DNA of 64,000 nucleotides from assembly GCA_021836125.1 (NCBI GenBank), contig JAKBJF010000001.1:1-64000 (forward strand), written 5' to 3'. The stretch comes from Nanobdellota archaeon (GTDB lineage: Archaea; Nanobdellota; Nanobdellia; Parvarchaeales; Parvarchaeaceae). A program made the translations under genes and the position numbers. The notes beneath the pieces were generated by a model. The model did no database searches, was not told where the DNA came from, and saw only the letters and a list, made by a program, of their open reading frames with translations. Of this stretch, positions 8,727 to 64,000 are shown one piece after another; position 1 is the first letter of the stretch, and each line of letters begins with the position of its first letter.

Positions 8727-9392
8727 ATGACAAACGAAAACAATGACCTGGCGGTGTTTCAAAGAGATCTCGGGCAGCAAGAGATGGGCAGTGAGGAATT
8801 AAAAAGGCTTGAGAAATTGTTAAAGGACATCGATGACAAGTCATTCAAAGCTTCTGACGTGAATGAGAACGGCCTTGTGCTTGTTTATTTACGCTATTCG
8901 CCGAAAAAATTTTATTATGAAGCTACAAAATATGATATAGACAATCTAGAAGTCGAAGTAGAATACGATGATAAGTATAATATAACTTCTGCAAGACAAA
9001 AATTTACGCCGGACATCGGCATAAGCAAGGGTAAATGGAAAGATGTTACGTCCGCGTACCTGTCAAAGACATCCTCTGGCAGCATCCCGTCAGATCTTAG
9101 TCTGGATCCAAGGTATATTTTCAGAAAGGGGATGCTCGTCTCGAGAAACGGCCAGTTCTACTCCTTCTATGAAAAAATGGGTATGTTCTCGCCGGAACTG
9201 TACGCTATCGCGCTGGAAGTGACTGACGAGCACATAACCGGCATACAGGCTGCGATGAAAGCGGATCTCGTGTGGATGGATGGTTTCAAATGTGCCAGTG
9301 ATGTTGTGAAATCAAAAATTCTAAAATTCAAGTTTGATGAAGGACAAAAACAATGTTCAGGTAGGGAGCAGATCGAAAGCGAACAGCAGTAG
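8727..9392 (+). CDS. Unknown 221-residue protein, operon partner of PRTase-like paralogue 1
   Basis: No family recognised. The first about 50 residues are charged and helical and include RLEKLL at residues 27-32 (the recurrent motif). The middle is beta-rich with many Tyr, Asp and Lys, and the end is polar. It starts 4 bases after the PRTase-like gene ends, so it is cotranscribed. The last 36 bases overlap, in antisense, the small pilin-like gene on the minus strand. Confidence 0.7.
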   Translation: MTNENNDLAVFQRDLGQQEMGSEELKRLEKLLKDIDDKSFKASDVNENGLVLVYLRYSPKKFYYEATKYDIDNLEVEVEYDDKYNITSARQKFTPDIGISKGKWKDVTSAYLSKTSSGSIPSDLSLDPRYIFRKGMLVSRNGQFYSFYEKMGMFSPELYAIALEVTDEHITGIQAAMKADLVWMDGFKCASDVVKSKILKFKFDEGQKQCSGREQIESEQQ

Positions 9393-9470
9393 AAGCACAA
9401 AAACTATCAGAAAAATCACCCATCCGTAGACCATTAGATACTCTACCAGCCACTGGCCAACCCGGTGCAT
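9357..9470 (-). CDS. 37-residue class III (pilin-like) micro-protein
   Basis: The encoded peptide has the hallmarks of an archaeal class III signal peptide with almost nothing after it. G5-Q6 is the predicted prepilin peptidase site, Glu10 is the conserved E+5, and EYLMVYGW is followed by a 15-residue run of I, L, V and F. The larger secreted proteins at 51068 and 58778 have the matching EYMMTYGW with the same Q-to-E spacing. A minus-strand TATA-like box (9494-9505) is centred 29 bases upstream, giving a leaderless start. The ectodomain is only about 7 residues (AFDLLPT). It could be a minimal pilin or a membrane-inserted helper. Its 3' end overlaps the gene at 8727-9392 in antisense. Confidence 0.65.
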   Translation of the reverse strand: MHRVGQWLVEYLMVYGWVIFLIVFVLLLLFAFDLLPT

Positions 9471-9493
9471 AACACTGTAATTTTACCACTGTT

Positions 9494-9505
9494 CTTATAA
9501 TTTTT
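9494..9505 (-). promoter_or_regulatory. TATA-like box of the pilin-like micro-gene
   Basis: AAAAATTATAAG on the minus strand, centred 29 bases before the ATG at 9470, the usual archaeal TATA to leaderless-start distance. Confidence 0.55.
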
Positions 9506-9567
9506 AGGTTTAAAAGGGGCGTTTGGACTGTAATAGATTATATAAACTGTCTGCAATATTATATTGA

Positions 9568-10446
9568 ATGGCGTTTTTTCAGAATTTCAACGTGGGCTGG
9601 CAGCTTGGAAAACAGGTAAGAAAGCTCGTGTTCGGGGATAAAAAACTGTTAATGTACCCTGTCTTTATAATGGTAATCTCTATATTGGAATTGGGTGCCT
9701 TATTCTCGATTTACTTTTTTAGCAGCGGTCTGTCCTTTATGAGCACCAACAGTCAGCTAGCCGAGTTACTATCTATCCTGGAGATTTTCGTAGCGTATCT
9801 GCTGATCACGTTTACGGCTACATATGGTATAATCGCTATGCTTATCGCATTCAGAGCATATTCCAGCGGTAAAGAAATGGGCTTAGTTGAGGCTATTTCA
9901 ATAACGAGCGGTTATACTAAATACATATTAGAGTGGGCCATTTTTTATGCAATTGTCTTAATGGTTTTGAGGATGATGTCGCGCAACAGGATGATCGGGT
10001 TCATGGCAAATCTTGTCGGGGGAATTGCGCTTAGCATCGCTACGATCTTCGTTGTGCCGGTAATAATAGACAACAAGCTGGGACCCATTGCCGCTATAAA
10101 GCTGAGTGCCAAAACGTTCATTGACAATTTCGGCAGGACGGTGGGCGGGATAGCATTTATAGACCTGTATAACTTAGTTTTCATACTGGTAGGTGTTGCG
10201 ATCTTTGCTGGAGGCATACTTGCTTTTTCCCTAACCGGGAGTCTGTTCGCGTTCGCCTACGGATACATGATTCCTATAATCGCAATGGCAGCCGGTGTTT
10301 TATTTATAATATTTGGGATATTGATGATGTACGTGAGTTCGAATGTGTACCGCTTCATCTTGTATGAGTTCATAAACGGCAAGCCGTTGCCAAATGGAAT
10401 AGACGAGAATCTTATCAAATCCCAGGTTCCTGGGGCTAAAGGATAG
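9568..10446 (+). CDS. DUF6159-like polytopic membrane protein
   Basis: A 292-residue protein beginning with a short amphipathic region (GWQLGKQVRKLVFGDKKLLMYP) and then six membrane helices at about residues 28-50, 66-95, 118-138, 142-166, 195-225 and 228-262. The first helix begins at KLLMYP, matching the DUF6159 family as I know it; function unknown. A TATA-like box (ATTATATAAACT) lies 27 bases before the ATG. A T-run follows the stop. The gene sits immediately upstream of the nuo operon but is separated from it by 268 bases. Confidence 0.7.
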   Translation: MAFFQNFNVGWQLGKQVRKLVFGDKKLLMYPVFIMVISILELGALFSIYFFSSGLSFMSTNSQLAELLSILEIFVAYLLITFTATYGIIAMLIAFRAYSSGKEMGLVEAISITSGYTKYILEWAIFYAIVLMVLRMMSRNRMIGFMANLVGGIALSIATIFVVPVIIDNKLGPIAAIKLSAKTFIDNFGRTVGGIAFIDLYNLVFILVGVAIFAGGILAFSLTGSLFAFAYGYMIPIIAMAAGVLFIIFGILMMYVSSNVYRFILYEFINGKPLPNGIDENLIKSQVPGAKG

Positions 10447-10456
10447 ACTCCTCGTC

Positions 10457-10463
10457 TTTTTTT
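10457..10463 (+). terminator. T-run terminator after the DUF6159-like gene
   Basis: Seven consecutive T beginning 11 bases after the stop codon, in a stretch CGTCTTTTTTTACG; oligo-T tracts terminate archaeal RNA polymerase. Confidence 0.4.
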
Positions 10464-14741: not shown

Positions 14742-14873
14742 ATGAATGCGAAGCGTCGGACGAGCAAGAAAACTACAAAGAAAGTTCCTGAAGACGAGGA
14801 AAAACGCGCGGGAGACTGGGAAGAACGAGAAGACCGTACAGATGCAAAGGAGTCAGGAGATAATTATATATGA
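14742..14873 (+). CDS. 43-residue basic-then-acidic small protein (cassette 1)
   Basis: The first half is Lys/Arg/Thr-rich (MNAKRRTSKKTTKK), the second half Glu/Asp-rich, ending in KESGDNYI. The protein at 20140-20325 has the same plan and tail (TESEDNYI). The stop overlaps the ATG of the HELGH peptidase (ATGA), so translation is coupled. Function unknown; a short intrinsically disordered partner or chaperone-like peptide for the following gene is one possibility. Confidence 0.7.
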   Translation: MNAKRRTSKKTTKKVPEDEEKRAGDWEEREDRTDAKESGDNYI

Positions 14874-15697
14874 ACTCTAAACTAGAGAAGACAATCTCGG
14901 ACGAAGAAGTACTTGAAGAATCGATAGATCGGACGGATATGCCTAACGACATTAAACTTGAGAGCCTTATAAACGCTGCCGTATCGGGGGGCGCAAACCT
15001 GCAGAAACGGCGCAGAAACGTCAGAAAACTGTTCGATTATCTTTCCAGTGAGATACCTGCATATTTTGGCCTAAAAAAACCAAGAGTATACTTAAGATTT
15101 GGTAGATATCAAGATTTTAAGAGAAGAGTTGGCTGGAAGAAAATCGCGGCAACGGCTTTCTATAACGGAAAGAAAACAATATACTTGAATGAAAGGACAC
15201 TTAAGCCGCCGTACAGAGGTGTAACCTACAGTAAAGCGATGGTGGTTAACCCTGGCAGAGCGCTTGCGCTCGCCCTTGCTCATGAACTAGGTCATGCGTT
15301 GGACTATAATTACAACCAACAGCAGTTCGATGGTACTATATTTGCGTACATTAACGATGTGAAGACACCGTATCTATACGCACGGTCTTTACAGGAAAGC
15401 ACTGCAGAAGCGGTTGCAACAGCATATCTGAAGAGCGCTCTTTGTGACTTCAGTTACACGAGCCTATCTGAACGCAGCTTTAACGACAACGGTACGGCGT
15501 TTATTTATGGATGCTCAATCTGTGCCGGAAAACTTGTATCGTCAATTGACGAAAGGTCACGCGTAAAAATTATCAGGGAGGTCATCCTGTCGCGTAATCC
15601 GGACAAAAAACTTGAACGTCTGTTTTCTGGGGAATTTAACAAGGTTAGCGCAAGGATGGTTAAAGTATCAAACGGCTATCTAAATACAAAAAAATGA
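14870..15697 (+). CDS. HELGH zinc metallopeptidase-like protein
   Basis: Residues 138-142 are HELGH, a classical HExxH zinc site, on a hydrophobic helix. QESTAEAVATAYL starts at about 175 and supplies the likely third ligand Glu (176 or 180), a gluzincin-like arrangement. No signal peptide is seen, so it is probably cytoplasmic. The N-terminal 35 residues are charged, and KLESLI at 29-34 is a copy of the recurrent motif. It is cotranscribed with the 43-residue protein. It belongs to no peptidase family I can name with certainty. Confidence 0.8.
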   Translation: MNSKLEKTISDEEVLEESIDRTDMPNDIKLESLINAAVSGGANLQKRRRNVRKLFDYLSSEIPAYFGLKKPRVYLRFGRYQDFKRRVGWKKIAATAFYNGKKTIYLNERTLKPPYRGVTYSKAMVVNPGRALALALAHELGHALDYNYNQQQFDGTIFAYINDVKTPYLYARSLQESTAEAVATAYLKSALCDFSYTSLSERSFNDNGTAFIYGCSICAGKLVSSIDERSRVKIIREVILSRNPDKKLERLFSGEFNKVSARMVKVSNGYLNTKK

Positions 15698-20139: not shown

Positions 20140-20325
20140 ATGGCAAAAAAAGAGCAGGTAAAACGCACGTCGAAGAATAAAGTTGCAAAACAAAAAGGGG
20201 CTGGGGCCCCTAAAGACGAAGATTTAGAAGTTGATGAGCAACCTACGGACGACGAATATAGCGAAGAGGAAGAGGAAGAAGAAGGTCGTAAAGACAACAC
20301 GGAGTCAGAAGATAATTACATTTAA
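20140..20325 (+). CDS. 61-residue basic-then-acidic small protein (cassette 2)
   Basis: Begins MAKKEQVKRTSKN (Lys-rich), then turns strongly acidic with a run of eight Glu after Ser, and ends TESEDNYI. It shares composition, order and tail with the 43-residue protein at 14742. An alternative ATG lies 6 bases earlier. The next gene starts 1 base after the stop, so the two form a cassette. Confidence 0.7.
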   Translation: MAKKEQVKRTSKNKVAKQKGAGAPKDEDLEVDEQPTDDEYSEEEEEEEGRKDNTESEDNYI

Positions 20326-20326
20326 T

Positions 20327-20599
20327 ATGGGACTTGATACGCTCCTCGTTGACGGAAAGGTCGCGACATATGCAAGTCGCTTGAAGTCTACATACAATGC
20401 AATAAAATGCGCTCCATTTAAATATAAACTCGGTGTGGGAATTACAGTACTGATTGGCGGGTGGTACTCTCTTATCGGGATAGCAAACGCCATCCAGGGC
20501 GATTTCGCGGGTTTATTTTTCGCTGGTTTCGGTGCTGTGTCTTTTGGAGCTACTGGCGACATATTAAGAAGTGCTTATAATAAGTATTCTAAATTGTGA
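20327..20599 (+). CDS. 90-residue two-helix membrane protein
   Basis: The motif GLDTLL is at residues 2-7. A polar stretch follows, then two hydrophobic segments (about residues 40-57 and 62-80) separated by a short Gly/Asp turn. The start is chosen just after the stop of the small charged protein (spacing 1 base); an upstream GTG-like extension in the same frame would overlap the charged gene and is unlikely. Function unknown. Confidence 0.7.
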   Translation: MGLDTLLVDGKVATYASRLKSTYNAIKCAPFKYKLGVGITVLIGGWYSLIGIANAIQGDFAGLFFAGFGAVSFGATGDILRSAYNKYSKL

Positions 20600-24780: not shown

Positions 24781-25377
24781 TCAATTCCCAAACCTGGGAT
24801 CCTTATCTGCCCAATAATCTAGGACCATCGACTCTATCCATTTTCTGTCTTCTTTGATGTTTCTCTCGTCATCCTTCCGTCTCAAGCTCGGCGCTGGATC
24901 TAATAATTTTATGTATACATGTCCCCCTTTTTTGTACTTGATTATATTCGAATAGTCTAGGTCTCCGTGTCCTATACCTTTTGAATGCAAAGCCTCAACA
25001 GCATAAATTATCTGTGAGCGTATTTCCCTTGCTTCGCGCGGTGAAATTAATTTCATTTTCGCTTTTTCCAAATCTTCTCCTTCAATTTTTTCTGAAAGAT
25101 AACCCACGTATTGGCCTTTTTTGTCTACAATAAGGGCATGGGGTGATGAGACATATTCCGGAGCCGCACCGTATATTCTAGACATATTTCTGTATTCCCC
25201 ATACACTAAATCTCCCATGAAATATGTAGGTTGTAACCGTTTAACGTGCACGCCGCGTCTTTTCATATCTGATTTTTTTACATCGGATAAATCAACGGTC
25301 TTCATGCCTTTAGCATCAATTTTAACTTTTATTCCAAGTAACCTTTCCAAGTTTATTTTATTTGTATCTGGATTCAT
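24781..25377 (-). CDS. Small protein-kinase-like protein
   Basis: 198 residues. The C-terminal part has the kinase catalytic loop HGDLDYSN (His137, Asp139, Asn144) and KLLDPA (Asp160 for metal, as in BUD32/RIO-type kinases). The region before has a hinge-like YLSEKIEG. There is no obvious Gly-rich loop, but an N-lobe is short in this class. The N-terminus carries NLERLL (residues 9-14), the recurrent motif. It is convergent with the metallophosphoesterase, 25 bases apart. Confidence 0.8.
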   Translation of the reverse strand: MNPDTNKINLERLLGIKVKIDAKGMKTVDLSDVKKSDMKRRGVHVKRLQPTYFMGDLVYGEYRNMSRIYGAAPEYVSSPHALIVDKKGQYVGYLSEKIEGEDLEKAKMKLISPREAREIRSQIIYAVEALHSKGIGHGDLDYSNIIKYKKGGHVYIKLLDPAPSLRRKDDERNIKEDRKWIESMVLDYWADKDPRFGN

Positions 25378-28564: not shown

Positions 28565-28909
28565 ATGAGCATTTTAGAAAGACTGTTAGCAAAGTTAAAC
28601 ACTAAAAAGACGGTGGTAAAGCTACATGAGCACAAATACGAAGCATTTTTGCCTTTAGACGTTTGGCTAAAGGGAGACCGCTATACGAACTTTATGCCGA
28701 TTGTGTGCTCTACTTGTTATAGTGTGAGCGGTATACCCTCCGCTAATTTTAATCTTGCAAAGGATTATCATGCAGAACCTGATGAAAATTGGGAGCAGTT
28801 TATATTAAAATTACAGAAGTATGTAAAGGAAAAGGGGAGGGGGCCGCCGACACTTTTTGATAATGCACTTAAAACATTTTATGTCGAACCTGTCGAAGAA
28901 ACTTTATGA
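28565..28909 (+). CDS. Unknown 114-residue protein
   Basis: Starts MSILERLLAK, with the recurrent motif at residues 3-8. One Cys pair (CSTC) sits mid-protein, perhaps metal-binding or a disulphide. The overall pattern is alpha/beta. The stop overlaps the next gene's start by 4 bases (ATGA), so they are cotranscribed. Confidence 0.7.
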   Translation: MSILERLLAKLNTKKTVVKLHEHKYEAFLPLDVWLKGDRYTNFMPIVCSTCYSVSGIPSANFNLAKDYHAEPDENWEQFILKLQKYVKEKGRGPPTLFDNALKTFYVEPVEETL

Positions 28910-41962: not shown

Positions 41963-41968
41963 GCGCCA

Positions 41969-43036: not shown

Positions 43037-44712
43037 ACATGGAAACAAAAGAGAAACAGAGAAAAAGACCGGCCGTGTTAGACTCCTTAAAGTCGCTGAT
43101 AAAGGGCGCAAGAGAAATGAATTTCACGAAAAAGTTCTATAATTTTAACAAAAACGCACGAAAAGCAAAAACATACGCATCCGGATTGGAAGCTTTACTA
43201 TACGAAAGCTGGAAGAAGGTAAACGCAGAATTTGGCTTTGTGCCGTTTCGTCCGGAATTATCGGATGGCATGATGTCTTACATTGACATGAGCACAAAGA
43301 GAGTATACATAGGCAGCGAATTACTAAAAAAAACCAGTAAAGGCGGAACTCCTGACGAAAGGGTGGTTTATGCTGCTTGTATGCATGAGACGGGTCACTA
43401 TATGTACCATCCTTACGATTTAACTACGATACTGACTGAACTTAACGCTCTTAAATTCTACGATGACGGCCGGCTGGGTGGTCCAAAGGCTTCCATCATG
43501 CGCCTGATATATGATGACATAGTGAACGAAACTAGTATAATAATAAACCACAAAGATCACAACCTTGACAGAATGTACCGCGCTATGGGCTCGCTAGATT
43601 CCAGCTCTTCAGCAAAAAAGAGCAAAGAGGACGCGGTTTCTCTTATGCAGGCATATTACAGCGAAATAAGCGGCTTGGACTTCGGCGTAAAACGAAAGGA
43701 CCTTAGTGTTGACATGCAAGACCGTTTGGATAAGCTTAAAAAGATAGACTTCTTAAACAGGGCTCGAAACACGTACAATATACGCGAATTTGCGCGCATA
43801 ATCGCCGATATTTCACTTAATACGGATTGTAGGGGAAAACAGATAAACAGTTTTTCGGAACAAGAGGTCCAAAAAGCTATGCAGGATCTCGCACAACAGT
43901 GCAGCCCGGAAGAATATCAAAAAATAAGAAAGTTTATGGAAGACGCTGGATGCAAGGACAAGTTGACAGATGGTGAAAACGCAGACCTTGTCGAATATTA
44001 TAAAGGGCTTGCATCCAAGTACGCCATAAGAATACTTGGAAAGCCGATGTCGAGTGCGGAATCGGACTGCCCTTCTGAATTAAAGGAATGGGAAATAAGC
44101 AGCCCCGTAAGCAGAATCAACCCGTACAGGAGCTTTGGCAAAATAATCCCGGGCATAACAAAGCAATGGGTCAAGGGCACATACGACACTTACAACAGCA
44201 TAATTTCGATACCTAATTCCATTATAGTAATAGACTCTTCTGGCAGCATGCAAAATCCGCGCAGTATGAAATCCAACGCTGTAGTTGGTGCATTTTCGAT
44301 TGCAAGGGCGTATATTTTAAATGGCGCAAAGGTGGATGTGATAAATTTCAGCGATAATGCGGGCGTAACGCCATATAAGAGTGAATTGGACGCTTATAGG
44401 TCTCTGATAGTGTATAACGCCGGCGGAACCAAGCCGCCAATAAAGGCGCTCGAGGAATTACTGTCAAATCAAAGCAAAGACATAACGATAATAACCGATG
44501 GATTCGGAGGTGCATCTTTTCAGGATATAGATGCCTTCATGCGCAAACTGGATTCTATTGCAGAACACAGAAGGGTCTCTTTTGTCTATATCGCTGATGG
44601 GCCTTCCGCTACTTTTGTGGGACATGATAAAATAAAATTCCATCACGTAAGCAAAATCGAAGACATAGCCGGTATAGTGCTTGGTGATCTTAATTGGGCG
44701 CCTTCAAAATAG
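43033..44712 (+). CDS. Metallopeptidase-VWA protein (DUF2201-like)
   Basis: 559 residues. N-terminal: GLEALL at 51-56. HETGH (118-122, zinc site) opens a metallopeptidase-like domain. At about 398-545 there is a VWA domain with intact MIDAS: DSSGS (401-405), a Thr in GGTKP and ITDGFG. This pairing of putative metallopeptidase and VWA, beside a MoxR ATPase, is the DUF2201-type arrangement. It overlaps the preceding gene by 4 bases, and the second beta-helix gene begins 12 bases after its stop. No signal peptide. Confidence 0.82.
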   Translation: MNMETKEKQRKRPAVLDSLKSLIKGAREMNFTKKFYNFNKNARKAKTYASGLEALLYESWKKVNAEFGFVPFRPELSDGMMSYIDMSTKRVYIGSELLKKTSKGGTPDERVVYAACMHETGHYMYHPYDLTTILTELNALKFYDDGRLGGPKASIMRLIYDDIVNETSIIINHKDHNLDRMYRAMGSLDSSSSAKKSKEDAVSLMQAYYSEISGLDFGVKRKDLSVDMQDRLDKLKKIDFLNRARNTYNIREFARIIADISLNTDCRGKQINSFSEQEVQKAMQDLAQQCSPEEYQKIRKFMEDAGCKDKLTDGENADLVEYYKGLASKYAIRILGKPMSSAESDCPSELKEWEISSPVSRINPYRSFGKIIPGITKQWVKGTYDTYNSIISIPNSIIVIDSSGSMQNPRSMKSNAVVGAFSIARAYILNGAKVDVINFSDNAGVTPYKSELDAYRSLIVYNAGGTKPPIKALEELLSNQSKDITIITDGFGGASFQDIDAFMRKLDSIAEHRRVSFVYIADGPSATFVGHDKIKFHHVSKIEDIAGIVLGDLNWAPSK

Positions 44713-44724
44713 TCCGCGTAAGTT

Positions 44725-45795
44725 ATGGAAACTGAGCTGTTGAGAAAAGAATTGAGCAACAGAAGTTGTGAAAACCAGTCATATAAAACGGGATACGCCG
44801 CCCTCATTTCGTCTAATTACAAGAAGGAAAGCCCCGGCCTGGAGTCGCTGTTAAAAACGTTCAACGACCTTCCTGATTTCGACAATTCCGGCAATCAACG
44901 TGAATACACTGCAATCTGCATTGACAAATTAAAGCAAGTGAAATACGAGGCACGCGACGCGATAGAGATGTGCGAAAACTTCGTGCCTTACAACAACAAG
45001 AACGGTTTTGGGATTTTCGCTTCTGCGGCTTTATTTTATTCCATAGGGGACGATGCTGAGACTACTATCCGACTAAAGCGCGCAATACCATATTTTCTTT
45101 CCGGCGAATTATTTGTGGATGAGATCCTAAAAAGACCGTACAGAAAGCATAAAATAACGGTCGACGGAAACATCGGAGACTATTCTCTTTCGTACGCAAA
45201 CGGCCTGGAGGCCGCAATCACGGGATACGCCGGCAACCACGTATGCTATGAGATGAGAAACGGGTGCATAAAAATAGGAAAGGATGCTGGGAACTACTTA
45301 GGTGAAAATATGATAGACGGGGAAATAGATGTAGAGGGCAAAGCAGGGATTGAAATCTATAGAAATACGGAAACTATTCGCAAAAATAATGGCTTAAAGG
45401 GAATACCCGTGGTACACTGTAAAAAGGGTTTTATCTCTGCCGGTTCTGATTCGGCACCTTTTCTGTTTATAAAACGTACCAGCATTCACAATACTCTCTT
45501 TAATGTTGCGCATGCATATCAGCACTTTAGAGATTATGGTCCCGGTAACAAATATCTTAATTTTGTCGGCTATTCTTTACTGGCTGCTGACGCCATCGCA
45601 TTAGCTTCCTACTTTCTTGGGATTGACAATGGCAGTATTGCAACTATGCGTGATTTGATATTAAATACATCTGTGTTCCAGCTATTCTTCTGTTATTGGC
45701 CGGTTGCGCGTCAACTAAATAAGTTTTTCGGCCGGATAGTAAATGAACGCAAGAAAGACCATGATGCAAAGTTATCGCGCGTATTGGATTACTGA
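44725..45795 (+). CDS. GXGXG-like beta-helix membrane protein, copy B
   Basis: 356 residues. Same plan as copy A: METE-L-[LA]R start, GLESLL (38-43), GFGIF-SAA, then G-D-x-G-D/N strands (GNIGDYSL, GYAGNHVC, KDAGNYLG) and about two C-terminal membrane helices. It is the last gene of the operon. The two copies differ a lot in sequence, so the duplication is old. Confidence 0.75.
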   Translation: METELLRKELSNRSCENQSYKTGYAALISSNYKKESPGLESLLKTFNDLPDFDNSGNQREYTAICIDKLKQVKYEARDAIEMCENFVPYNNKNGFGIFASAALFYSIGDDAETTIRLKRAIPYFLSGELFVDEILKRPYRKHKITVDGNIGDYSLSYANGLEAAITGYAGNHVCYEMRNGCIKIGKDAGNYLGENMIDGEIDVEGKAGIEIYRNTETIRKNNGLKGIPVVHCKKGFISAGSDSAPFLFIKRTSIHNTLFNVAHAYQHFRDYGPGNKYLNFVGYSLLAADAIALASYFLGIDNGSIATMRDLILNTSVFQLFFCYWPVARQLNKFFGRIVNERKKDHDAKLSRVLDY

Positions 45796-45839: not shown

Positions 45840-46235
45840 TTAGAGCTCTCTGCTCTTTCTTTTCAGCCTCTCCATTAAGTCACGTAAAGAAGACCGATAC
45901 AAAAACGCGAATATCTCTTTGTACATCGCATCTGCTATTGGGTCATATGAGTACTGGTTGTATCGAATGCGTTCTTTATAGGCAGAACCAGCCATCGGGC
46001 GCCACGTAAAAACCACATAAACTTCTGAATTTGATTCCGGCTCCCTATCATTGCTATTCAATAACGCTTCCTTTACCTCTATCAACCTGCGCGTCTTTAT
46101 TGCGGCGTTTGGATCTTCCGGGTGTAGATCCGGATGGCATTCTTTCAACTTTCTTTTGAATGCAATTTCTATATCTTCTTCGGATGCATCTTCTTGTAAC
46201 CCTAGTATCTCATACAATGCTTTTCGATTAGCCAT
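45840..46235 (-). CDS. J-domain (DnaJ-like) protein
   Basis: 131 residues. N-terminal J domain: helices with YEILGL, then KECHPDLHP (HPD loop that stimulates Hsp70 ATPase). C-terminal half basic and helical. Type III J-protein by layout (no Cys repeat or Gly/Phe region). It converges with the beta-helix gene. Confidence 0.85.
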   Translation of the reverse strand: MANRKALYEILGLQEDASEEDIEIAFKRKLKECHPDLHPEDPNAAIKTRRLIEVKEALLNSNDREPESNSEVYVVFTWRPMAGSAYKERIRYNQYSYDPIADAMYKEIFAFLYRSSLRDLMERLKRKSREL

Positions 46236-49485: not shown

Positions 49486-50115
49486 TTATATATAGGTCTG
49501 TGACCAGGATATAACTCTCTGTGGGAGCTTAAGGCTATTATGCGCTATAGAATCGCTTTTATCTGCGAGACAATTGGCGTAAATTTTTGCCTTTTCGATT
49601 ATATCCGTCCTTGCTTTAGTAATGGAAGACCGAAACGGGTTTTTATGCTTTAATATCCCCCAATAATTCAATTGCGCCTCCAGGCCAACTTCCGGTGAAA
49701 CGCCATGCAAGTGGGAGTATACTGCAATCTGCATTGAGAGTGCATCTAATGGATCTGCAGCTCTGCTTAAAGCATAAACTTGTGCGTTCAACTCGTCATT
49801 TATTCCATCATTCTTCATGTGCTGTGCTTCATGGTCAAGTGTAGTTCTTAAAAAAAGTTTAAACCTATCCAAATCTTGGTCTGAGAGTATACTGTACACT
49901 AAGCGTATAAAATATGATTCGGACAGTTTTAGTGCTTTTTTCCCGGATTTTCGTGAGGGGGCGTAAAAATTTGGCACGGGGTTGTTCTCATCAATTTTGA
50001 CGTAATATTCAAAACCAGGATAGAACTCCTGTATCTTGTCATTTATCGATTTCTCTGCCAGTTCATGCAGATTCGCATCGTCGTCCAATAAGATATCTAA
50101 ATTTGGATTTACCAT
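49486..50115 (-). CDS. HExxH zincin-type protein
   Basis: 209 residues. HEAQH (95-99) on a helix followed by NDELNAQVY; Glu108 may be the third ligand. NLDILL at 5-10 is the recurrent motif. No signal peptide. Third HExxH protein of the window, unrelated in sequence to 14870 and 43033. No family named. Confidence 0.75.
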   Translation of the reverse strand: MVNPNLDILLDDDANLHELAEKSINDKIQEFYPGFEYYVKIDENNPVPNFYAPSRKSGKKALKLSESYFIRLVYSILSDQDLDRFKLFLRTTLDHEAQHMKNDGINDELNAQVYALSRAADPLDALSMQIAVYSHLHGVSPEVGLEAQLNYWGILKHKNPFRSSITKARTDIIEKAKIYANCLADKSDSIAHNSLKLPQRVISWSQTYI

Positions 50116-50249: not shown

Positions 50250-50849
50250 TTACTGCATCCACGCATTCGCAGGATCGACATCCAGATCTAGTTCTGGTTC
50301 TTCTTGCGGTTCTTTGTCTTCCGGCGGAAGAACCTGCGGAAGCCACGGGTGTGAGTAATCGAAGTCGACTTCACTGTGAATGTTTTCGTTCCCGGTCTGA
50401 TCAATTGAAAGTATTCTCATACTGCTAAGTGAATCTTCGTTCAAAATAAAATCTACTCTTAGTTTAGTAGCTGGTAAAGGCGAGCCTAAGTCGTAGGATA
50501 TCTCTAACGAATAAGTGTCACTGCTTGATTTTATTATCCTGTCTTTATTATGCTCGTATAAGTATCTTGGATCGTAGAGCAGATGCAATGATTCTAACTT
50601 TGTAAGTAAAGCTTTTATGTAAGGGCCCAGGTCTGTGGCATTCTCCCCGTGGATTATGTGCAAGCCAGATAAATTATAACAAGCGTCGAAATCGAATTCA
50701 TTGCGCGTTCCGGCCATGTTTGACTCTATCAATACCTGTGGCGCATACATTACCGCGAAATTCTTGGTATTGCTTGGCTTGTAGATTTTGCCCCGGCCAC
50801 CGACGATGTTGCCCTCGAACTTGAATAAAGCGTCTTCAAGAGATACCAT
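50250..50849 (-). CDS. Unknown 199-residue protein with acidic tail
   Basis: Not recognised. SLEDAL at 3-8. A beta-rich body and a Pro/Glu/Asp-rich tail (PPEDKEPQEEPELDLDVD). 134 bases upstream of the 209-residue zincin, same strand. Function unknown. Confidence 0.7.
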   Translation of the reverse strand: MVSLEDALFKFEGNIVGGRGKIYKPSNTKNFAVMYAPQVLIESNMAGTRNEFDFDACYNLSGLHIIHGENATDLGPYIKALLTKLESLHLLYDPRYLYEHNKDRIIKSSSDTYSLEISYDLGSPLPATKLRVDFILNEDSLSSMRILSIDQTGNENIHSEVDFDYSHPWLPQVLPPEDKEPQEEPELDLDVDPANAWMQ

Positions 50850-51067: not shown

Positions 51068-52156
51068 TCATTTAAGTCCAAGTATGGAAGTAGTAAGAAT
51101 GAAATGGTTGCCTATGCCGCCATCGTATGTACTACCGACAGTGCATGCATCATTATCTGTGGAACCAGAAGAAGCTGAAAGCCAGCTTGAATTCAGAGCG
51201 GATACGCTAGGTGACCAACTTACATTTGTGAGATAACCCTGTGCTGCTCCTACACATAGATAATTACCATAAGTCGAATTCAATGTTGCCGTATCGTATA
51301 TTGCTGATGGCTGAGGCGAGGCGATTCCGCCGTTGCCGGCATATACGCTGCTATTGAAAGCAAACGGGCAGGAAGGCATGTTAAAGACATATACGGCTGA
51401 GCCTATGTAAGCCGTTTTTCCTGTAGTTACATTAAAATCATACGTACCTGGCGCCTGCGCATTACAAGTGGCTATGTAAGTCGACAGTGAGGACGGGCCT
51501 ACAAGGCCGCCTCCCAAGCTAGTATTAAACAAATCTTGCGTACATCCTAAAGGCATACGCGCAGTAGTTATATTCCCGCCGAAGCCGCTCGCGCTTACCA
51601 AAGCGACAAACGACCGTTTGCTAAGAGTGTATGATACTTTACTGAAGGTTGAATTAGTCACATTGCTAAAAAGCTCAAAGCTATTACACGGCAAAGGAGG
51701 TATGTTTCCTGGTGAAATCTCTACACGAAGAGAGCCGCTGGAATTGTATGTAAGTCCATTGCTCTGATAAGTTATAGTCCCTAGTGCGTTTACTTCTGGC
51801 CCAGTCAACGATAATCCTTGAATAAAGCACTGCGAATTCTGGGATGTTGTGAGATTGTTTGATAAGCATGTGAAATTTGAATACTGTTTATTATTGATTA
51901 CTACCGAGACGTTCTTTATACTTATATCGTTTCCTGCTTCGTCGGATATATATAACGACATTGCAGTTGAGTTTGCCTGCCCGTTTGTCACTGGCACTGT
52001 TGCGAATCCAGTTGCTGAGAATGGTGTAACTGATACTGACGTCGGGTTAAATACGCCGAACGAGTACAAGACTGCTGCGATTATTACTATTATGAGTATC
52101 GCCCAACCATAGGTCATCATGTACTCCAATGCTGATTGGCTTTTTTTAGCGTCCAT
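51068..52156 (-). CDS. Class III signal-peptide secreted (pilin-like) protein
   Basis: 362 residues. KS-Q7SALE11Y at the start, with Q at the predicted cleavage and Glu at +5, then a 20-residue helix. Exported pilin-like protein, probably on the surface. The ectodomain is Ser/Thr/Asn-rich with paired Cys. Start moved to ATG 52156: TATA-like box is about 30 bases upstream, and the longer ATG at 52198 adds a region unlike a signal peptide. Shares a 35-base identical stretch with 58778-61816. Confidence 0.85.
   Translation of the reverse strand: MDAKKSQSALEYMMTYGWAILIIVIIAAVLYSFGVFNPTSVSVTPFSATGFATVPVTNGQANSTAMSLYISDEAGNDISIKNVSVVINNKQYSNFTCLSNNLTTSQNSQCFIQGLSLTGPEVNALGTITYQSNGLTYNSSGSLRVEISPGNIPPLPCNSFELFSNVTNSTFSKVSYTLSKRSFVALVSASGFGGNITTARMPLGCTQDLFNTSLGGGLVGPSSLSTYIATCNAQAPGTYDFNVTTGKTAYIGSAVYVFNMPSCPFAFNSSVYAGNGGIASPQPSAIYDTATLNSTYGNYLCVGAAQGYLTNVSWSPSVSALNSSWLSASSGSTDNDACTVGSTYDGGIGNHFILTTSILGLK
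52093..52127 (-). repeat. 35-base identity with class III gene at 61746-61780, copy 1
   Basis: The bases encoding the EYMMTYGWAIL region are identical over 35 positions to those in the 1012-residue gene. Third codon positions are included, so this is more than protein conservation and suggests recent gene conversion. Confidence 0.85.
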
Positions 52157-52241
52157 AATATTAATTAAACACCGTAAGTTTAATATCTTAATGTTCAATC
52201 AAATATATATAAGAATATAAATTTAAGAGGCCAATCGATAT

Positions 52242-53586: not shown

Positions 53587-54651
53587 TTAAGTCGTTCTTT
53601 GACTCGGTATTTTTCGCTGTCTTTGGAAGTTTTCCCAGTAACTTTCCATGCTCTTATCGTAGTTTACGATGTTTTTTAGATAACTCTGTTTTTCCTTGTA
53701 TAAGTGTCGCGAAGAAAAGAGTCCAACTCCTATTATTGGCAATAAAAACAGTTCTGCGCCGGTCATGTTGACGCCACCAAATTGGGTCGAAGAATTCAGC
53801 ATTGACAAGAAAAGATAAAAGAGATTGTAGTTTATGTTCGGCCCTCCGAACCAGGCCTCGTTTGCCAGGGGCAGTAAGCCTACTTCTTCAAGTGCCCCTA
53901 TCGCAGCGAAGCCCCCTATGATAGTTCCTATTGCTTCGGAAACATAACTCATGCTTTTAGACAAGCTGGAAAGGAGGGGTCTAAATATGCTTTTCTTAGA
54001 GTCTAGGCGTTTATTTGCTATTACGGTGCTGCCATCTTCACTTCCATAGCCAAAGTGGGGACCAGTAACACCGTACACAACGAATTTTTTGCGCGGGGGC
54101 GTTGCTGTAGCAAGATAGTCGAGCTCGTCTACATTCTTAAGTCTTAGTGATTTCGCTAATTTTGAATTATTAAAAAAGCAACTGATAGCCAACCCCCCTA
54201 TCTGCGATGAGGAAATTGGCATATACAAGCTAAATTTTTTGTCGTTATCATAAACCCTATCGATGGCGATCTTTGTGCTGTTAAGTCTGCTTAGCACGCC
54301 TTCTATATCAGTTACTATATTTTCTGCGAATTTACTGATACTGCGCGCATCCGCATGGGAATAAAATTCCTTGTCAATATATGAGTCTAAGTACTGGTAA
54401 AATACGCTGGACGCCTTACTTGACCCGAACTTTACATTTGTATTTTCCTCAAAATAGGCCGCTGTCGCCAGTATAGCACTTGTTATGTCCTCCTTTGCTG
54501 CACGGTAAAACTCTTGATATGACAGCCTGTCTGGACTAAGGTAATTATACGCTGTTTTAAAGGGCAAAGCGACTTTCTTCTCAAACTTAAGAAGCTCGTC
54601 TAATGCAACGTTCTTAATATCTTTGTTAAACATACTCCAATTAGAATGCAA
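53587..54651 (-). CDS. Unknown protein with C-terminal membrane helices
   Basis: 354 residues. ALDELL at 16-21 (recurrent motif). A soluble region of about 230 residues, then two membrane segments at about 240-260 and 298-318, with a charged end. The size, motif and two C-terminal helices resemble the beta-helix proteins of the MoxR operon, but the middle lacks the G-D strands. It converges with the transglutaminase-like gene. Confidence 0.7.
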   Translation of the reverse strand: MHSNWSMFNKDIKNVALDELLKFEKKVALPFKTAYNYLSPDRLSYQEFYRAAKEDITSAILATAAYFEENTNVKFGSSKASSVFYQYLDSYIDKEFYSHADARSISKFAENIVTDIEGVLSRLNSTKIAIDRVYDNDKKFSLYMPISSSQIGGLAISCFFNNSKLAKSLRLKNVDELDYLATATPPRKKFVVYGVTGPHFGYGSEDGSTVIANKRLDSKKSIFRPLLSSLSKSMSYVSEAIGTIIGGFAAIGALEEVGLLPLANEAWFGGPNINYNLFYLFLSMLNSSTQFGGVNMTGAELFLLPIIGVGLFSSRHLYKEKQSYLKNIVNYDKSMESYWENFQRQRKIPSQRTT

Positions 54652-56132: not shown

Positions 56133-56801
56133 ATGGTAGAAAATCTGGATGAATTACTCAAGAAAAATGCAGTAACCAAATCCTATATAGATACAGAAAG
56201 AAGAGAACAAGAAGCAAAAATCGAAGGCAATCGCATATCTGAGTTCCTTGCTTCAAAGAGAAGAGAGGAAGAAACCAGAAAGGAAAACGCTTACAGAAAG
56301 ATGCAAAGATACGCAAGCGCAATTTTTTACGGCATAGTATCAAAAGGATATATAGCGGCGGAATCTTGGTCTTCGCGCGGCAATAAATACGACATGCTCT
56401 TGTCAGATGGACGCGGCATTATACATGACTTTACAACGCTGGAAAATCCGTTCCACAAATATTATGAAGTGAGCGCGCATATAATCAATCCCTCTTTCAG
56501 GAAAAAACTGTTCGGAATGGAAGAAGAAGGGTCTGTGGAAATAGGTAAGATAATCATGTACTTTAGCCCGGAAGGCGAGCTAGAAAAAGGTTCTAAGATC
56601 TCAATATATGGGGAAGACAATGTAAAGCCAATACTCGAAATAGAAGGAGAAATACTTTCCAGACTCGACGAAAAACCAAATTTTGATAAAGATGTCTCAA
56701 AAAAAGAAGCTACACAGGTAAGAAGCGAATATCTTTATCGCAGAGAAACGTCTGCACTGAAGAATCTAATAAAAATACGCCCTGAAATACTCCACAAATA
56801 G
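56133..56801 (+). CDS. Unknown 222-residue protein with coiled-coil start
   Basis: NLDELL at 4-9. Residues about 20-55 are a charged helix (many Arg/Glu) likely to form a coiled coil. The rest is alpha/beta. Function unknown. Operon with 55470. Confidence 0.7.
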   Translation: MVENLDELLKKNAVTKSYIDTERREQEAKIEGNRISEFLASKRREEETRKENAYRKMQRYASAIFYGIVSKGYIAAESWSSRGNKYDMLLSDGRGIIHDFTTLENPFHKYYEVSAHIINPSFRKKLFGMEEEGSVEIGKIIMYFSPEGELEKGSKISIYGEDNVKPILEIEGEILSRLDEKPNFDKDVSKKEATQVRSEYLYRRETSALKNLIKIRPEILHK

Positions 56802-58777: not shown

Positions 58778-61700
58778 TTAGCCATATCCGCTGACAGGAA
58801 TGACACCATTACCATTGCAGGCGGCTGCTGTTGCGCCATTTGTTGGAAGGTAGTTCGGTATGTTGTCGGATATCGTAGTCAAAAGAGAAGTTCCAGAGTA
58901 TACTTGTATAGTCGTGATGTTATAATAGTTTCCGACATTATGTTCAAAAAACATATATAAGTATCCTGTACTTGGGTCGACAGCAGATGCTGAAAGATGT
59001 ATATGCGCTATGCCCGTCGTTTGTGTGATATTCGCTATTGAAGTCAATCCATTGAATACTTCCATTGTAGTATTAAAAATATATGAAGTAGTATTCATCC
59101 AATTCTTATAAACGTAGGTGTAGTTGTTTACAGGATCGAATTCAACATCGTATATTAAATGGTAATATCCATTAACGCCGGGTATGGAGGCGTTATAAAG
59201 CGTAGTAGTATTATCCATTATCTGAAGATTTGCCATCGCGTTTCTTTCTAGCACGGAATACACGTAATTATAATGCGGGTTATATGTTATACATTTGGCG
59301 TCGACGGCTGAGAATTCGTGTGTGATAGTCGTGCCGGATATCATTTCGATGCCAGATCCGCTCTCTACATATATATCCGAATTATTTGAATCAAATGCCA
59401 TGTCATAAGTGAATGGATGTTTTACCGTTGTATCATACACATAACCAACGAGGTTGAGCCCGTTTACTACAGCGATTGTGTCATTTACAACCGCGCTGTA
59501 ATTTACCGTATCTGCAGGATTATCGCAATTTATGCCGTTGCCACTTACATAAAGGCACCCGCCGCTTGCAAAGTAAACGTCGCCATTATTGGGATTGTAT
59601 ATCGCATCCTGGAATGTCAAGCCCGTTTGTATGCTTCCTACTAACCTAGTGTTGTTTATTATGTATATCGTACCATAGTTATACGAAGATGCGTATACTA
59701 GATGATTACTGGAATCATAAACTATGGAAAGAAAATCACTAGAGTTGCCTGAACCACCTTGAGCAAGTTTTATATTAGCTATGTCGGTAGATCCTTTTAT
59801 TACAGCGATATAGTCGGCACCGGTACCATTCGTATATCCTGAGTACATATCTCCATTATTTGAATCAAATACTGCATGGCCTATATTGTCTACTCCGGCC
59901 TGCACTTCCGAAAAGCCTTTAAGATCACTTATACTTATATTTGCAACTATCTGTGTCCCATTTAGTATCTGTCCCGCAACAGGAGATGTTTTGGCGTTAA
60001 AGAAATAAAGAAGATAATTACACGATGTTGAAGCTGAATAAGATATTAACTGCGATTTTCCTGCAGCTAAAGCGCCGGAGGACGGAGACGGAGAATAAAT
60101 CGTTGTCCCTAAGACTCCTGCACAGCCCGAATTATAAGATTGATTCAACTGCTGCTCTGCAGTATAAGAATAGGTGCTATTTATAACATTGAATGTAATA
60201 GAGGTCCCAAAAGCAGAATCATATGTGCCCCCGTAATATACTGTCCAGCCCTCTGCAGACAATATATTTGCAGGTATACCGGCCTCTGTGAATGTAGTTA
60301 AGCACCTGGTTGCGCCTGCAAACGACAAGTGTATCGTCGAACCGGCCGCGAGGGTTCCTGAAGATTTATTTACAGTGTAAGTAGTGGTACACAAACCCGT
60401 TGAATTCACGTGGTTATAGACTTTGAAAGCATAGTTCGCCGAAGAAGTGTTAAAAGTTATCTGCGGTGTTGTGGAGCTATTCAAAATACCGGTGCCAGGG
60501 CCATAAGTCGCGTTCCAGTTATATCCAGAAGGCAGTCCGATCTCTGTGAATGTTGTCGTAACTGTAGCACTGCAGGAGGTAGCATGTGAAAATGACACGC
60601 TCTCGGGAGTCCCAGCACTCAAACTGCCTGCTGATGGCGATGCGGTATAATTTGTCCTGCAGCCTGCAGTCCAATTACTTTCATTATAGACAGAAAAGCT
60701 GTGCGCCCCCGAATTCGACAGGAAAGATATTGTCGTGCTGACAGAAGAGTTTCGTGTTCCATCATATGAGGCTGACCAGTTATAATTCGACGGCAAGCCT
60801 GATTCCGTAAAGATTGTATTGGTGCATGTAGAAGAAGCCAAGGAAAACGCTACTGGTTTAGTAGAACCTGCATTAAATGTGCCGGAAGAGGGCGTCGGAG
60901 AATAAATCGAATAGCAGCCTGCTGAAGTGATGTTTTTAGATGGGATAGAATAATAAAAGTTTCCGCTCGCCGTGGAGAAAGCGATCGAAGATGAGACGCT
61001 TGAATTCAAAGACCCCGCATAGACGACGCTCCACAAAGCACCTTTAGGTAAGCCGCTTTCAGAAAACGTGGTAATTACACAGGAACCAGTAGTTTCAGAA
61101 AAGCCTACATTTATCGAAGAACCTGCATTCAATGTACCGCTTGATACGTTTGCGGCATAAATAAAACAGCCGGATGTGCTGTCGTTCATTATACTGAAAC
61201 TGTGCGGGCCCGAACTTGTGTTGAACACTATTGTAGTTAGGTTCGAGCTGTTAATTAAACTGTCATAGACCACAGTCCAGTACAATCCCGATGCAATACC
61301 AGATTCTGTGAATGTGGATAAAGCCGTTCCGGAAAGTCCAGAACCAGCAAACAGCGGCCCCGTCTGCTTTCCTAATCTTATTGTTCCTGTCGAAGTAAGA
61401 TTCTCAAGACTGTTTATGACTGTGTAATGGATGTTGCCCACTACTGACACTGTGCTTTCTGAAAATGTGCCCTTTACATAGCAACCAGTGTATTGCCCTT
61501 GCAAGAGGACTATATTAGTGCAATTAGTGACCGTGAACAACTGGCTACCATCCAGCAGGGTTACGTTGTTTATTCTTATCGTTTGTCCATACTGGTCGGT
61601 TATGGTTACCTTAAAGAAGCTACTGTTAACCGCCGCACTTGTTACCGGAACGTCGGAGAATCCCGTTATCAGCGGGGCGCTTGTCACATTTGAGGAGGGA

Positions 61701-61816
61701 TTGAATATCCCAAAGGAGTATAGTACGGCGGCGACTATGACGATGATGAGTATCGCCCAACCATAGGTCATCATGTACTCTAAAGCCGACTGTGCTCGTT
61801 TGTCGCCCGATCTCAT
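58778..61816 (-). CDS. Class III secreted Ig-repeat plus beta-propeller surface protein
   Basis: 1012 residues. Class III signal: A8|Q9SALE13YMMTYGW then a hydrophobic helix. About six Ig-like repeats follow, each with F[ST]E[SI]G[LI]P and a WS[VA]xY or W[NT][AV][TY]Y strand and a YSPSPSSG-type end. The C-terminal third (about residues 625-1000) has YVTN/NHL-like blades (YDSSNHLVYAS, DSNNSDIYVES). Same domain set as 15881-19882 but with a pilin-type anchor instead of a membrane helix. Likely an adhesive filament or surface protein. Confidence 0.85.
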   Translation of the reverse strand: MRSGDKRAQSALEYMMTYGWAILIIVIVAAVLYSFGIFNPSSNVTSAPLITGFSDVPVTSAAVNSSFFKVTITDQYGQTIRINNVTLLDGSQLFTVTNCTNIVLLQGQYTGCYVKGTFSESTVSVVGNIHYTVINSLENLTSTGTIRLGKQTGPLFAGSGLSGTALSTFTESGIASGLYWTVVYDSLINSSNLTTIVFNTSSGPHSFSIMNDSTSGCFIYAANVSSGTLNAGSSINVGFSETTGSCVITTFSESGLPKGALWSVVYAGSLNSSVSSSIAFSTASGNFYYSIPSKNITSAGCYSIYSPTPSSGTFNAGSTKPVAFSLASSTCTNTIFTESGLPSNYNWSASYDGTRNSSVSTTISFLSNSGAHSFSVYNESNWTAGCRTNYTASPSAGSLSAGTPESVSFSHATSCSATVTTTFTEIGLPSGYNWNATYGPGTGILNSSTTPQITFNTSSANYAFKVYNHVNSTGLCTTTYTVNKSSGTLAAGSTIHLSFAGATRCLTTFTEAGIPANILSAEGWTVYYGGTYDSAFGTSITFNVINSTYSYTAEQQLNQSYNSGCAGVLGTTIYSPSPSSGALAAGKSQLISYSASTSCNYLLYFFNAKTSPVAGQILNGTQIVANISISDLKGFSEVQAGVDNIGHAVFDSNNGDMYSGYTNGTGADYIAVIKGSTDIANIKLAQGGSGNSSDFLSIVYDSSNHLVYASSYNYGTIYIINNTRLVGSIQTGLTFQDAIYNPNNGDVYFASGGCLYVSGNGINCDNPADTVNYSAVVNDTIAVVNGLNLVGYVYDTTVKHPFTYDMAFDSNNSDIYVESGSGIEMISGTTITHEFSAVDAKCITYNPHYNYVYSVLERNAMANLQIMDNTTTLYNASIPGVNGYYHLIYDVEFDPVNNYTYVYKNWMNTTSYIFNTTMEVFNGLTSIANITQTTGIAHIHLSASAVDPSTGYLYMFFEHNVGNYYNITTIQVYSGTSLLTTISDNIPNYLPTNGATAAACNGNGVIPVSGYG
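61746..61780 (-). repeat. 35-base identity with class III gene at 52093-52127, copy 2
   Basis: Second copy of the identical 35-base coding stretch around the EYMMTYGW signal. Confidence 0.85.
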
Positions 61817-62277: not shown

Positions 62278-62366
62278 GTTCAGCTATCACTTTTTTGTTA
62301 TTAATAGATTCTAGTAAATTGCAAGTAATTGATTAAAGCGAGTGCTGTGGTTTTCATCGGTAGATG

Positions 62367-62654
62367 TCACAATTTCTCCAGTTCCTTTTCTATTTCATTT
62401 AGCATAATGTCGATTGGCGGTTGATACTGCACGTCTATCGTCTCTTTTTTGTAATATGCTAGGTTTTTACGCATGAACGCTACCTGAGTTGGTATGTATG
62501 AAAAAACATCTATGTCCTGTCTCTCGCCCGCAATCTCTAAATAAGTCTTGTATTTTTTGGGCTCTTTCATTGTTTTAAACCCGCGCCATAGATCATATAT
62601 GTCTTTAAGCATGTTTCTGTCTGCCATGGCAATTGTTTTTTCGGCGATAAGCAT
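62367..62654 (-). CDS. Unknown 95-residue protein
   Basis: Helical and charged; no family. TATA-like box (CTATAAAATC) about 28 bases before the ATG supports this start. The C-terminus is acidic. Confidence 0.65.
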   Translation of the reverse strand: MLIAEKTIAMADRNMLKDIYDLWRGFKTMKEPKKYKTYLEIAGERQDIDVFSYIPTQVAFMRKNLAYYKKETIDVQYQPPIDIMLNEIEKELEKL

Positions 62655-62743
62655 GATAAAATCATTTTACTAGATTTTATAGATAAAACAACTACTTTAT
62701 AGTGATAGAAAAGTATTTATACTAGTCTATCTCATATAAGCCT

Positions 62744-63643
62744 ATGGAAAACTATTCAGAAGAAAAGGAAGGGAAAGACGTATTTCAATCTCCGTATTCA
62801 GCGGATTTAGAAGCTATTTTAGCGGCTGATTTGGAAAATATAGAAGCTGGACTTAAAAAGATCTCTGCAACTAATAATAGGCAGGCTGTGAACGGTTCGG
62901 CAAATCGTGCTCCTGCAAGGCGTTACTCGGCACCTACAAGCGTGTTTGATGCTATCTATCAGGATCTAGAACGCGCTAGTGAAGGTGCTTATAACGCGTT
63001 AAGCAATGTTGGCGGCTCTCTAAAAGAGAAAACTGGAGATGTTTATGAAAATTATTTTGTAGAGCGTAAGCCTGTTGCGTCCTTTTATCAAACGCTGAAA
63101 AATAAAGGAAATAGTTTATACGGCAGCGTAAAAAGGTTGGGAAAACAGACAAAAACCCGAGCAGCAAACAGAATGTACAAATTATTTGGAAAGGAAGCAC
63201 CTTCAGCGAAGGTAGCTGACGAAAACGTTGCTGTTTCTGCTGAAGAGCCAGAAGGTCTGGATATAATTAGACAAGGGAGTTATAATCAAAACGAAAACTC
63301 CGACGGTGCGCCGCGCGGTGTTAACTTGTTGGAAGATGATGAACTTTTAGGGGCTAATTTTGATGCTTTAAACGAAAAGGATATAAATAACAACAAACGA
63401 AACACGGAAAAGTATAAAGGACTTTCACCTATAAAGCGTGTAAGACTCCCTAACAAACGGATGGGCTATTTCATACAGAACGGAAATCGGGCTGCTCCTT
63501 ACAGTTCACAGGTACGCGGTCCGCTGCCAAACTCTGTATCTTATTCCTTTACGATGTCTTACGGCAATAGAGGATTTAACATGTCGTATACTGTCTCAGC
63601 AGGATTCGGCATATCATCAGGATATGCATACACGTCTAACTAG
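62744..63643 (+). CDS. Unknown 299-residue low-complexity protein
   Basis: DLEAIL at 21-26 (recurrent motif). Residues about 30-60 are Asn/Ala-rich, then Tyr/Lys-rich helical parts, an acidic patch, and a C-terminal segment rich in Ser, Tyr, Gly and Asn (NMSYTVSAGFG). Probably largely disordered. TATA-like box about 27 bases upstream. It precedes the J-domain gene by 12 bases, so they form an operon. Confidence 0.7.
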   Translation: MENYSEEKEGKDVFQSPYSADLEAILAADLENIEAGLKKISATNNRQAVNGSANRAPARRYSAPTSVFDAIYQDLERASEGAYNALSNVGGSLKEKTGDVYENYFVERKPVASFYQTLKNKGNSLYGSVKRLGKQTKTRAANRMYKLFGKEAPSAKVADENVAVSAEEPEGLDIIRQGSYNQNENSDGAPRGVNLLEDDELLGANFDALNEKDINNNKRNTEKYKGLSPIKRVRLPNKRMGYFIQNGNRAAPYSSQVRGPLPNSVSYSFTMSYGNRGFNMSYTVSAGFGISSGYAYTSN

Positions 63644-63655
63644 ACGGACCGCAGC

Positions 63656-64000
63656 ATGGATAAATTAGTTTATTCGATTAAAACTGGTAAGCCTTATGAA
63701 GAGGACTATAAAACCATTAAAATCGATTATAAAGAATTGTTGGACCTGGATAATATTATTAGCGACATGCTAAAGAAAGAGGCAGAAGCCAGAGCAAGAG
63801 AAGAAGAAACTAAAAGAAAACTAGAAGAAGAAAGAAAAAATAGAGCAGAAGCCGCAAGAAATAGAAGAGTCGAGGAAGCGAGAGTCAAAGATCCTTATTC
63901 TATACTTGGCGTAAGCCGCAACGCATCAATTTCAGATGTACAAAGGGCATACTTCAGCTTAGCCAGAAGATATCATCCTGACTTGTTCCAAGATCCTCGT
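63656..64000 (+). CDS. J-domain protein with charged coiled coil, C-terminus cut by window
   Basis: 115 codons are seen. Residues about 49-82 are a Glu/Arg/Lys/Ala-rich coiled coil. A J domain then starts at [13 protein letters not shown] and contains RRYHPDLF (HPD). A C-terminal or internal J domain after a coiled coil is unlike DnaJ. It follows the disordered 299-residue protein in an operon, so it may recruit Hsp70 to it (inference). Confidence 0.8.

Follow-up and report, generated by a model that had tools for sequence, protein, structure and literature searches.

Why do unrelated proteins encoded in one stretch of an archaeal genome begin with nearly the same short peptide? The question is raised by the first 64,000 nucleotides of contig JAKBJF010000001.1 (assembly GCA_021836125.1), hereafter the window, where a first-pass annotation pointed to 14 genes whose products carry L-[ED]-x-[LI]-[LI], here called the tag, close to the N-terminus; all of these strict motifs (14/14) were found. 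The window is part of a 157-kb contig (C22) in an archaeal genome of 800 kb and 35 contigs (G000). Its NuoD is 64-68% identical to those of metagenome-assembled genomes labelled Ca. Parvarchaeota/Nanoarchaeota, and the source organism is a member of a Parvarchaeum-like genus of the DPANN archaea, most of whose proteins have no known function. Our analysis suggests that the tag is a portable N-terminal amphipathic helix that would serve in docking or assembly of otherwise unrelated, lineage-specific Parvarchaeum proteins, a reading to which we give a probability of about 0.55.

Enrichment of the tag at protein N-termini

The tag is enriched at the N-termini of lineage-specific proteins of this genus. 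Relatives for comparison comprised 26 genomes of this genus and four others of the family. A dicodon scorer was used to call genes in 579 kb of the 800-kb G000 and in samples of relatives, namely G016, G004 and G023 (same genus), G030 (same family), and G036 and G050 (same class); gene starts are predicted, and the genomes, which are not complete, were sampled in part. The strict tag was sought in the first 60 or the first 45 residues, depending on the test, and proteins are called lineage-specific when BLAST finds no match for them in the samples of G036 and G050.

That a strict match in an N-terminal segment should be rare had been reasoned from rough frequencies, and the counts agree: the motif is found in 14 of the 67 N-terminal 60-mers of the window, against a mean of 1.4 and a maximum of 4 in 300 shuffles, and in 5 of 204 internal 60-mers. 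The window is rich in tags compared with the rest of the genome, where 24 of 464 N-termini match (9.2 after shuffling, maximum 17). Similar excesses are seen in G016 (19/317 against 6.7 shuffled, maximum 15) and G023 (18/276 against 5.3, maximum 15), and a smaller one, not significant alone, in G004 (9/194 against 4.3, maximum 12). The density of the motif falls from 2.25 per 1000 sites at residues 1-10 to about 0.4 in the protein interior. Adjacent pairs of carriers are weakly above chance (8 against 4.7, p = 0.085).

The excess persists when the window in which it was discovered is held out. Proteins of four genomes of the genus were clustered by homology (748 clusters), clusters with a window member were removed, and one representative of each was kept. 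Among lineage-specific families, 35 of 513 have a tag within their first 45 residues (mean of 8.5 and maximum of 17 in 1000 shuffles), compared with 30 of 2041 internal 45-mers (Fisher p = 1e-9), an N-terminal excess of ~4-5 fold. Clusters conserved across the class carry the tag at chance level (1/181; p = 2e-4 against lineage-specific clusters). An equal frequency in shuffled N-termini, in internal segments or in housekeeping-like proteins was named by the first-pass annotation as evidence against the tag; in all three the enrichment is lacking. After removal of hydrophobic and transmembrane contexts, including class III pilin signals, 42 of 542 N-termini match against 9.1 after shuffling, with 1.3% of internal segments; C-terminal 45-mers show no enrichment (9/542 against 7.5 shuffled).

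In this genus the excess is about 5-fold (47.7 against 9.5), and small samples of N-terminal 60-mers from E. coli and T4 gave 0/33 and 0/55. The tag is likely to be specific to this lineage; we stop short of calling this proven because the controls are two genomes and the small E. coli and T4 samples.

Specificity of the pattern

Both the order and the identity of the residues matter. Among all 60 distinct slot orderings, L[ED].[LI][LI] has the highest N-terminal/internal ratio (4.1), followed by its own relaxed forms and by L.[ED][LI][LI] (2.9). The ratio is 1.2 for [ED]L.[LI][LI], 1.5 when the acid is replaced by K/R, and 1.3, 1.3 and 0.7 when the first Leu is replaced by Ile, Val and Phe, respectively. 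When every four-position class pattern with a span of up to 6 was scanned without supervision, the tag pattern came out on top (z 12.7; 48.2 observed against 9.3 expected). An acid follows the first Leu (+1) of L..[LI][LI] in 25% of N-terminal and 13% of internal instances (p = 0.003). The consensus is [N/D/S/G]-L-[E>D]-x-[L/I]-[L/I], often with a hydrophobic or aromatic residue at +7.

In an alignment of 42 unrelated carriers, the only nearly invariant columns are M1 and one Leu of the motif, the latter partly by construction because the motif was the criterion by which the carriers were selected. The codons for Leu, Glu/Asp and Ile are mixed across tags. Conservation therefore lies in the protein, and a DNA-level element was rejected.

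Retention of the tag in diverged homologues

As judged from aligned sequences, three families keep the motif although identity over the remainder of the protein drops to 20-50%, which bears out the expectation that homologues in sister genomes would conserve it. In the family of the window protein 50250-50849, whose own tag is the loose SLEDAL (50826-50840, minus strand), all 12 aligned members (12/12) are 25-50% identical to the query and keep the motif at residue 3-4. Their N-termini include MKTLDQIIQDFE, MKGLDDIIADFE, MDTLEKIIGDFE, MEELERIITKFE, MKTLGEIIADFE and MSLDSALQDFE, and L4, D10, F11 and E12 lie well over the mean column information. This lineage-specific family, which also has a member at L024:3456-3989, consists of proteins of ~170-220 residues that start with MKTLDQIIxDFE and have no annotation; of 55 genomes, 8 have it, and all 8 belong to the genus.

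In a phosphoribosyltransferase (PRTase) family, the window proteins 7916, 36014 and 38279 were aligned with eleven homologues. The motifs stand ahead of the domain (TLDVILKEV, TLEKILQEA, ELEKILREA, SLNDLLIDA, TLSGILKTA and SLSELLETI) and are preceded by leaders of 1 to about 45 residues that are not alignable. The loose SLSELLETI lies within 7916-8722 (plus strand); its homologues at 36014 and 38279 have DLESRL and SIPDLFNKL. The family is expanded and has an unusual N-terminal helical extension. It has six copies in this genome (window 7916-8722, 36014-36850 and 38279-39085; C22:64384 and C22:91729; L010:10298-11062) and a patchy distribution in the genus.

The window proteins 41969 and 44725 are 25-27% identical overall, and GLExLLKTF is the longest identical block of their divergent N-termini. 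The first-pass annotation had taken the carriers to be non-homologous; this is largely so, with the exception of these two, which as paralogues (27% identity) are not independent. A variable polar leader before the tag had also been described. Leaders that genuinely differ in length are found in this pair and in the PRTase family, whereas genes 8727, 14870, 20327 and 43033 have later in-frame ATGs, and part of the variable leader may therefore be start-site uncertainty.

Further examples are the GH15-like proteins of G000 and G016 (RALDRILLENGRLEKI and RNLEQLLSENERLEKI) and tandem proteins adjoining the vWA gene in G030, of another genus, which carry KLETLLSEF. For 71 of all 122 homologous pairs of less than 60% identity, a strict or loose motif is also present in the partner; the background is 32% for the loose form, and a few large families dominate the count. 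G030 also encodes a 784-residue protein with the N-terminal KKNLDTILDDN (L148:521-2875); as G030 is a different genus of the family, this sequence suggests that the tag may be older than the genus. In G036, of another DPANN family, small families have tag-like N-termini such as TLEKLLLDA, RLEDILRR, NLDWIIKNSF and NLDNIIKSSF (L072:7501-8889, L076:12164, L079:13832).

Comparison with known targeting systems

The closest likeness is to the encapsulation peptides of bacterial metabolosomes (PduP, PduD, EutC), which, like the tag, are short N-terminal amphipathic helices on unrelated proteins. The peptide of PduP is MNTSELETLIRTILSEQL (PMC5405515), and its core L6-E7-T8-L9-I10 (LETLI) fits L-[ED]-x-[LI]-[LI] exactly. 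Each of the substitutions E7A, I10A and L14A abolishes encapsulation (PMC11157265). By its pattern and order specificity the tag has the features of a bacterial microcompartment (BMC) peptide, namely a terminal amphipathic helix with L/I at i, i+3 and i+4 and a conserved Glu. Metabolosome peptides can also work without a shell, by bundling: the PduP peptide self-assembles through an I10 core and an E7-R11 bridge (PMC12339742). The Parvarchaeum core is, however, shorter and the E-R spacing of PduP is not enriched; unlike metabolosome cargo, the carriers make up no metabolic pathway and include membrane proteins.

Other short peptides resemble the tag less. Encapsulin targeting peptides are likewise short and recruit unrelated cargo, but they are usually C-terminal and rich in Gly and Leu, whereas the tag is N-terminal only. 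The eukaryotic LxxLL motif (nuclear-receptor box, NR-box) is a short docking helix with the leucine spacing of the tag; it is not N-terminal, its receptor is the groove of nuclear receptors, and an acid at +1 is not required. In class III (pilin-like) archaeal signal peptides, as in G023 L122:12599, strings resembling LE[YF][LI][LI] occur close to the N-terminus but, unlike the tag, are directly followed by a long hydrophobic segment. Nothing relevant came up when we searched the literature for an N-terminal motif of LxxLL type, or for such a tag, in archaea.

A receptor was sought among known systems. The BMC shell protein (PF00936) was found in 0 of 33 genomes (20 from the genus, the others from the class), the encapsulin (PF04454) in 0 of 33 and the contractile-injection sheath (PF04984) in 0 of 29; the E. 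coli and S. elongatus controls for BMC and those for the other two were positive. These three were rejected as receptors. The first-pass annotation had compared the tag with the shared adaptor domains of vWA-MoxR conflict systems, and the window indeed contains an operon of a MoxR-like ATPase, a vWA-metallopeptidase and tagged membrane proteins (40502-45795). Tags are genus-wide, whereas within the genus the vWA profile matches G000 only and not the tag-bearing G004, G016 and G023 (98-100% complete), so that vWA-MoxR as the common partner was rejected. The carriers, moreover, match no defence family beyond an AbiEii-like nucleotidyltransferase. No consistent PHROG or PADLOC signal is common to the 42 carriers, and an origin from a viral or defence island was rejected in the absence of a shared phage or defence signature. 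None of the conserved lineage-specific proteins listed from the partial genomes stood out as a candidate receptor. Because shells and sheaths were not found and the vWA protein is absent from sister genomes, a hub, if there is one, should be something not yet recognised.

A model for the tag and its alternatives

We propose that the L/I face of the tag packs on a hydrophobic groove, which would be supplied either by like tags, in a mixed helical bundle as for metabolosome encapsulation peptides, or by a lineage-specific hub protein. The acid at the helix start would contribute a salt bridge, and soluble enzymes, together with a few membrane proteins with cytosolic N-termini, would be gathered into one assembly. 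In this way the tag would act like an encapsulation or assembly peptide without a known shell. Homotypic bundling or groove binding is plausible because the tag has the L-E-x-L-I core of PduP. The microcompartment-like docking peptide suggested by the first-pass annotation stands as the best reading in its core and its amphipathic design; a link to BMC or encapsulin shells is not supported in the genomes searched. If the proposal is true, dozens of orphan families of one genus would fall into a single cellular system, the tag peptide would be a direct handle for finding its hub, and the system would be an archaeal, shell-free parallel to bacterial metabolosome assembly peptides. A bolder version, which we advance tentatively and think rather doubtful, is a genus-wide address code by which enzymes and membrane proteins specific to the lineage would reach one shared assembly, built without a known shell protein and possibly related to the tubes of ARMAN cells. 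Unexplained cytoplasmic tubular structures are present in these cells (PMC4110969); their link with the tag is speculation.

Several observations weigh against a docking helix. The strict form occurs in only about 8% of lineage-specific families, and no candidate partner was identified among shells, sheaths, vWA-MoxR and conserved lineage-specific proteins. K/R at +5 is not specifically enriched over internal motifs, which means that the tag shows no parallel to the E7-R11 bridge of PduP. AlphaFold2 models, built from alignments of two or three window sequences, are weak (mean pLDDT 43 and 52): in them the motif forms a short helix of its own (residues 37-47 of 44725, a discrete helix and the highest-confidence block; residues 12-21 of the PRTase protein), which may be either free or packed on the domain of the same protein. 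In the vWA-metallopeptidase, PRTase and 41969 families, this helix may belong to a small domain at the N-terminus. Such packing is the substance of an alternative that we consider unlikely but weighty, in which the motif makes no more than a favourable helix N-terminus (N-cap, first-turn acid, hydrophobics at i, i+3 and i+4) folded on its own domain with no common partner. The same pattern is in 1.6-fold excess in unrelated DPANN genomes (10.5 against 6.4 in G036, not significant there, and 5.0 against 3.1 in G050), and part of the signal may therefore be a general helix-start preference in young proteins; the 2.9-fold enrichment of L-x-[ED]-[LI]-[LI] and the motif's place in the first conserved helix of the vWA-metallopeptidase family fit the same account. 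It explains less well why the excess is about 5-fold in the genus and about 1.6-fold elsewhere, why Leu must come first (1.3 for Ile or Val) and E is preferred to D, and why internal helices, conserved folded proteins of the same genomes and the small E. coli and T4 samples lack the pattern.

An export or delivery signal, directing effectors out of the cell or into a thermoplasmatal host, would suit carriers that are lineage-specific and diverse in domains (protease-, kinase- and nucleotidyltransferase-like), with a polar leader of variable length as in the N-terminal secretion signals of effectors. We judge it improbable: some carriers are membrane proteins with C-terminal transmembrane segments (53587, 44725, 41969 and 20327), others resemble cytosolic enzymes (the GH15-like L025:11938 and the PRTases), and neither a sheath nor any secretion machinery emerged as a partner in the genomes searched. 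Slightly less probable still is regulated degradation, with the tag as an N-terminal degron recognised by an AAA+ protease or a MoxR-type unfoldase. A short linear motif at the N-terminus of many accessory proteins fits it, as do the MoxR-like ATPase (40502) and the vWA-metallopeptidase (43033) of the window, but the vWA system is missing from near-complete tag-bearing sisters and a stable conserved helix before intact domains would be atypical of degrons. The pattern is also short and degenerate, and a few matches are coincidental; that chance and a selective reading of the window produced the whole signal is nevertheless hardly credible, given the held-out families and an unsupervised scan that arrives at the same pattern.

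Tagged proteins and neighbouring genes of the window

Orphans are in the majority among the carriers, which otherwise are zincin-, kinase-, nucleotidyltransferase-, PRTase-, GNAT-, SprT-, GH15- and Toprim-like, with a few membrane proteins. On the plus strand, the orphan 8727-9392 has RLEKLL at 8808-8822 (residue 28, or residue 9 if the start is the ATG at codon 20), and the zincin-like protein 14870-15697 (AHELGHALDY) has KLESLI at 14957-14971. GLDTLL of a small membrane protein (20333-20347, plus strand) is at residue 3 when the start is placed at 20327; the motif is as annotated, and this position is an in-frame ATG, codon 33 of the open reading frame 20231-20599. Orphans on the same strand carry ILERLL (28574-28588, in 28565-28909), KLEKLL (37674-37688, in 37662-38240), NLDELL (56145-56159, in 56133-56801) and, in a low-complexity protein (62744-63643), DLEAIL (62807-62821). 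Tags on the minus strand are NLERLL (25336-25350) of the RIO/protein-kinase-like protein 24781-25377, NLESLL (30285-30299) of the nucleotidyltransferase-like protein 29370-30326, NLDILL (50086-50100) of the orphan 49486-50115 and ALDELL (54589-54603) of the membrane protein 53587-54651. Further strict N-terminal matches, absent from the first-pass list, are found in the nitrilase-like 57357 and in the J-domain protein 63656 (DLDNII). Coincidental matches among the carriers are the nitrilase, the GNAT start at L030:6175, transmembrane segments and class III pilin signals (such as QASLEYLIIIG).

The operon 40502-45795 comprises the MoxR-like AAA ATPase (40502), the two paralogous tagged membrane proteins, 41969-43036 (GLEALLKTF, 42092-42106) and 44725-45795 (GLESLLKTF, 44839-44853), and the vWA-metallopeptidase fusion 43033-44712 (HETGH and a DSSGS MIDAS-like motif); the three tags are on the plus strand. 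The fusion had been counted among the strict tags; its motif, GLEALLYESWKK at 43186-43200, is present and makes up the domain's first conserved helix, which its homologues share. The vWA protein has a second copy at L024:14683-16344, and one in G030 is accompanied by seven tandem tagged paralogues (L149:4377-12854).

Two J-domain proteins lie near tagged genes (45840-46235 and 63656-64000), and the loci 51068-52198 and 58778-61816 encode large proteins, secreted or at the surface, that have a class III (pilin-type) signal, SALEYMMTYGWAILII.

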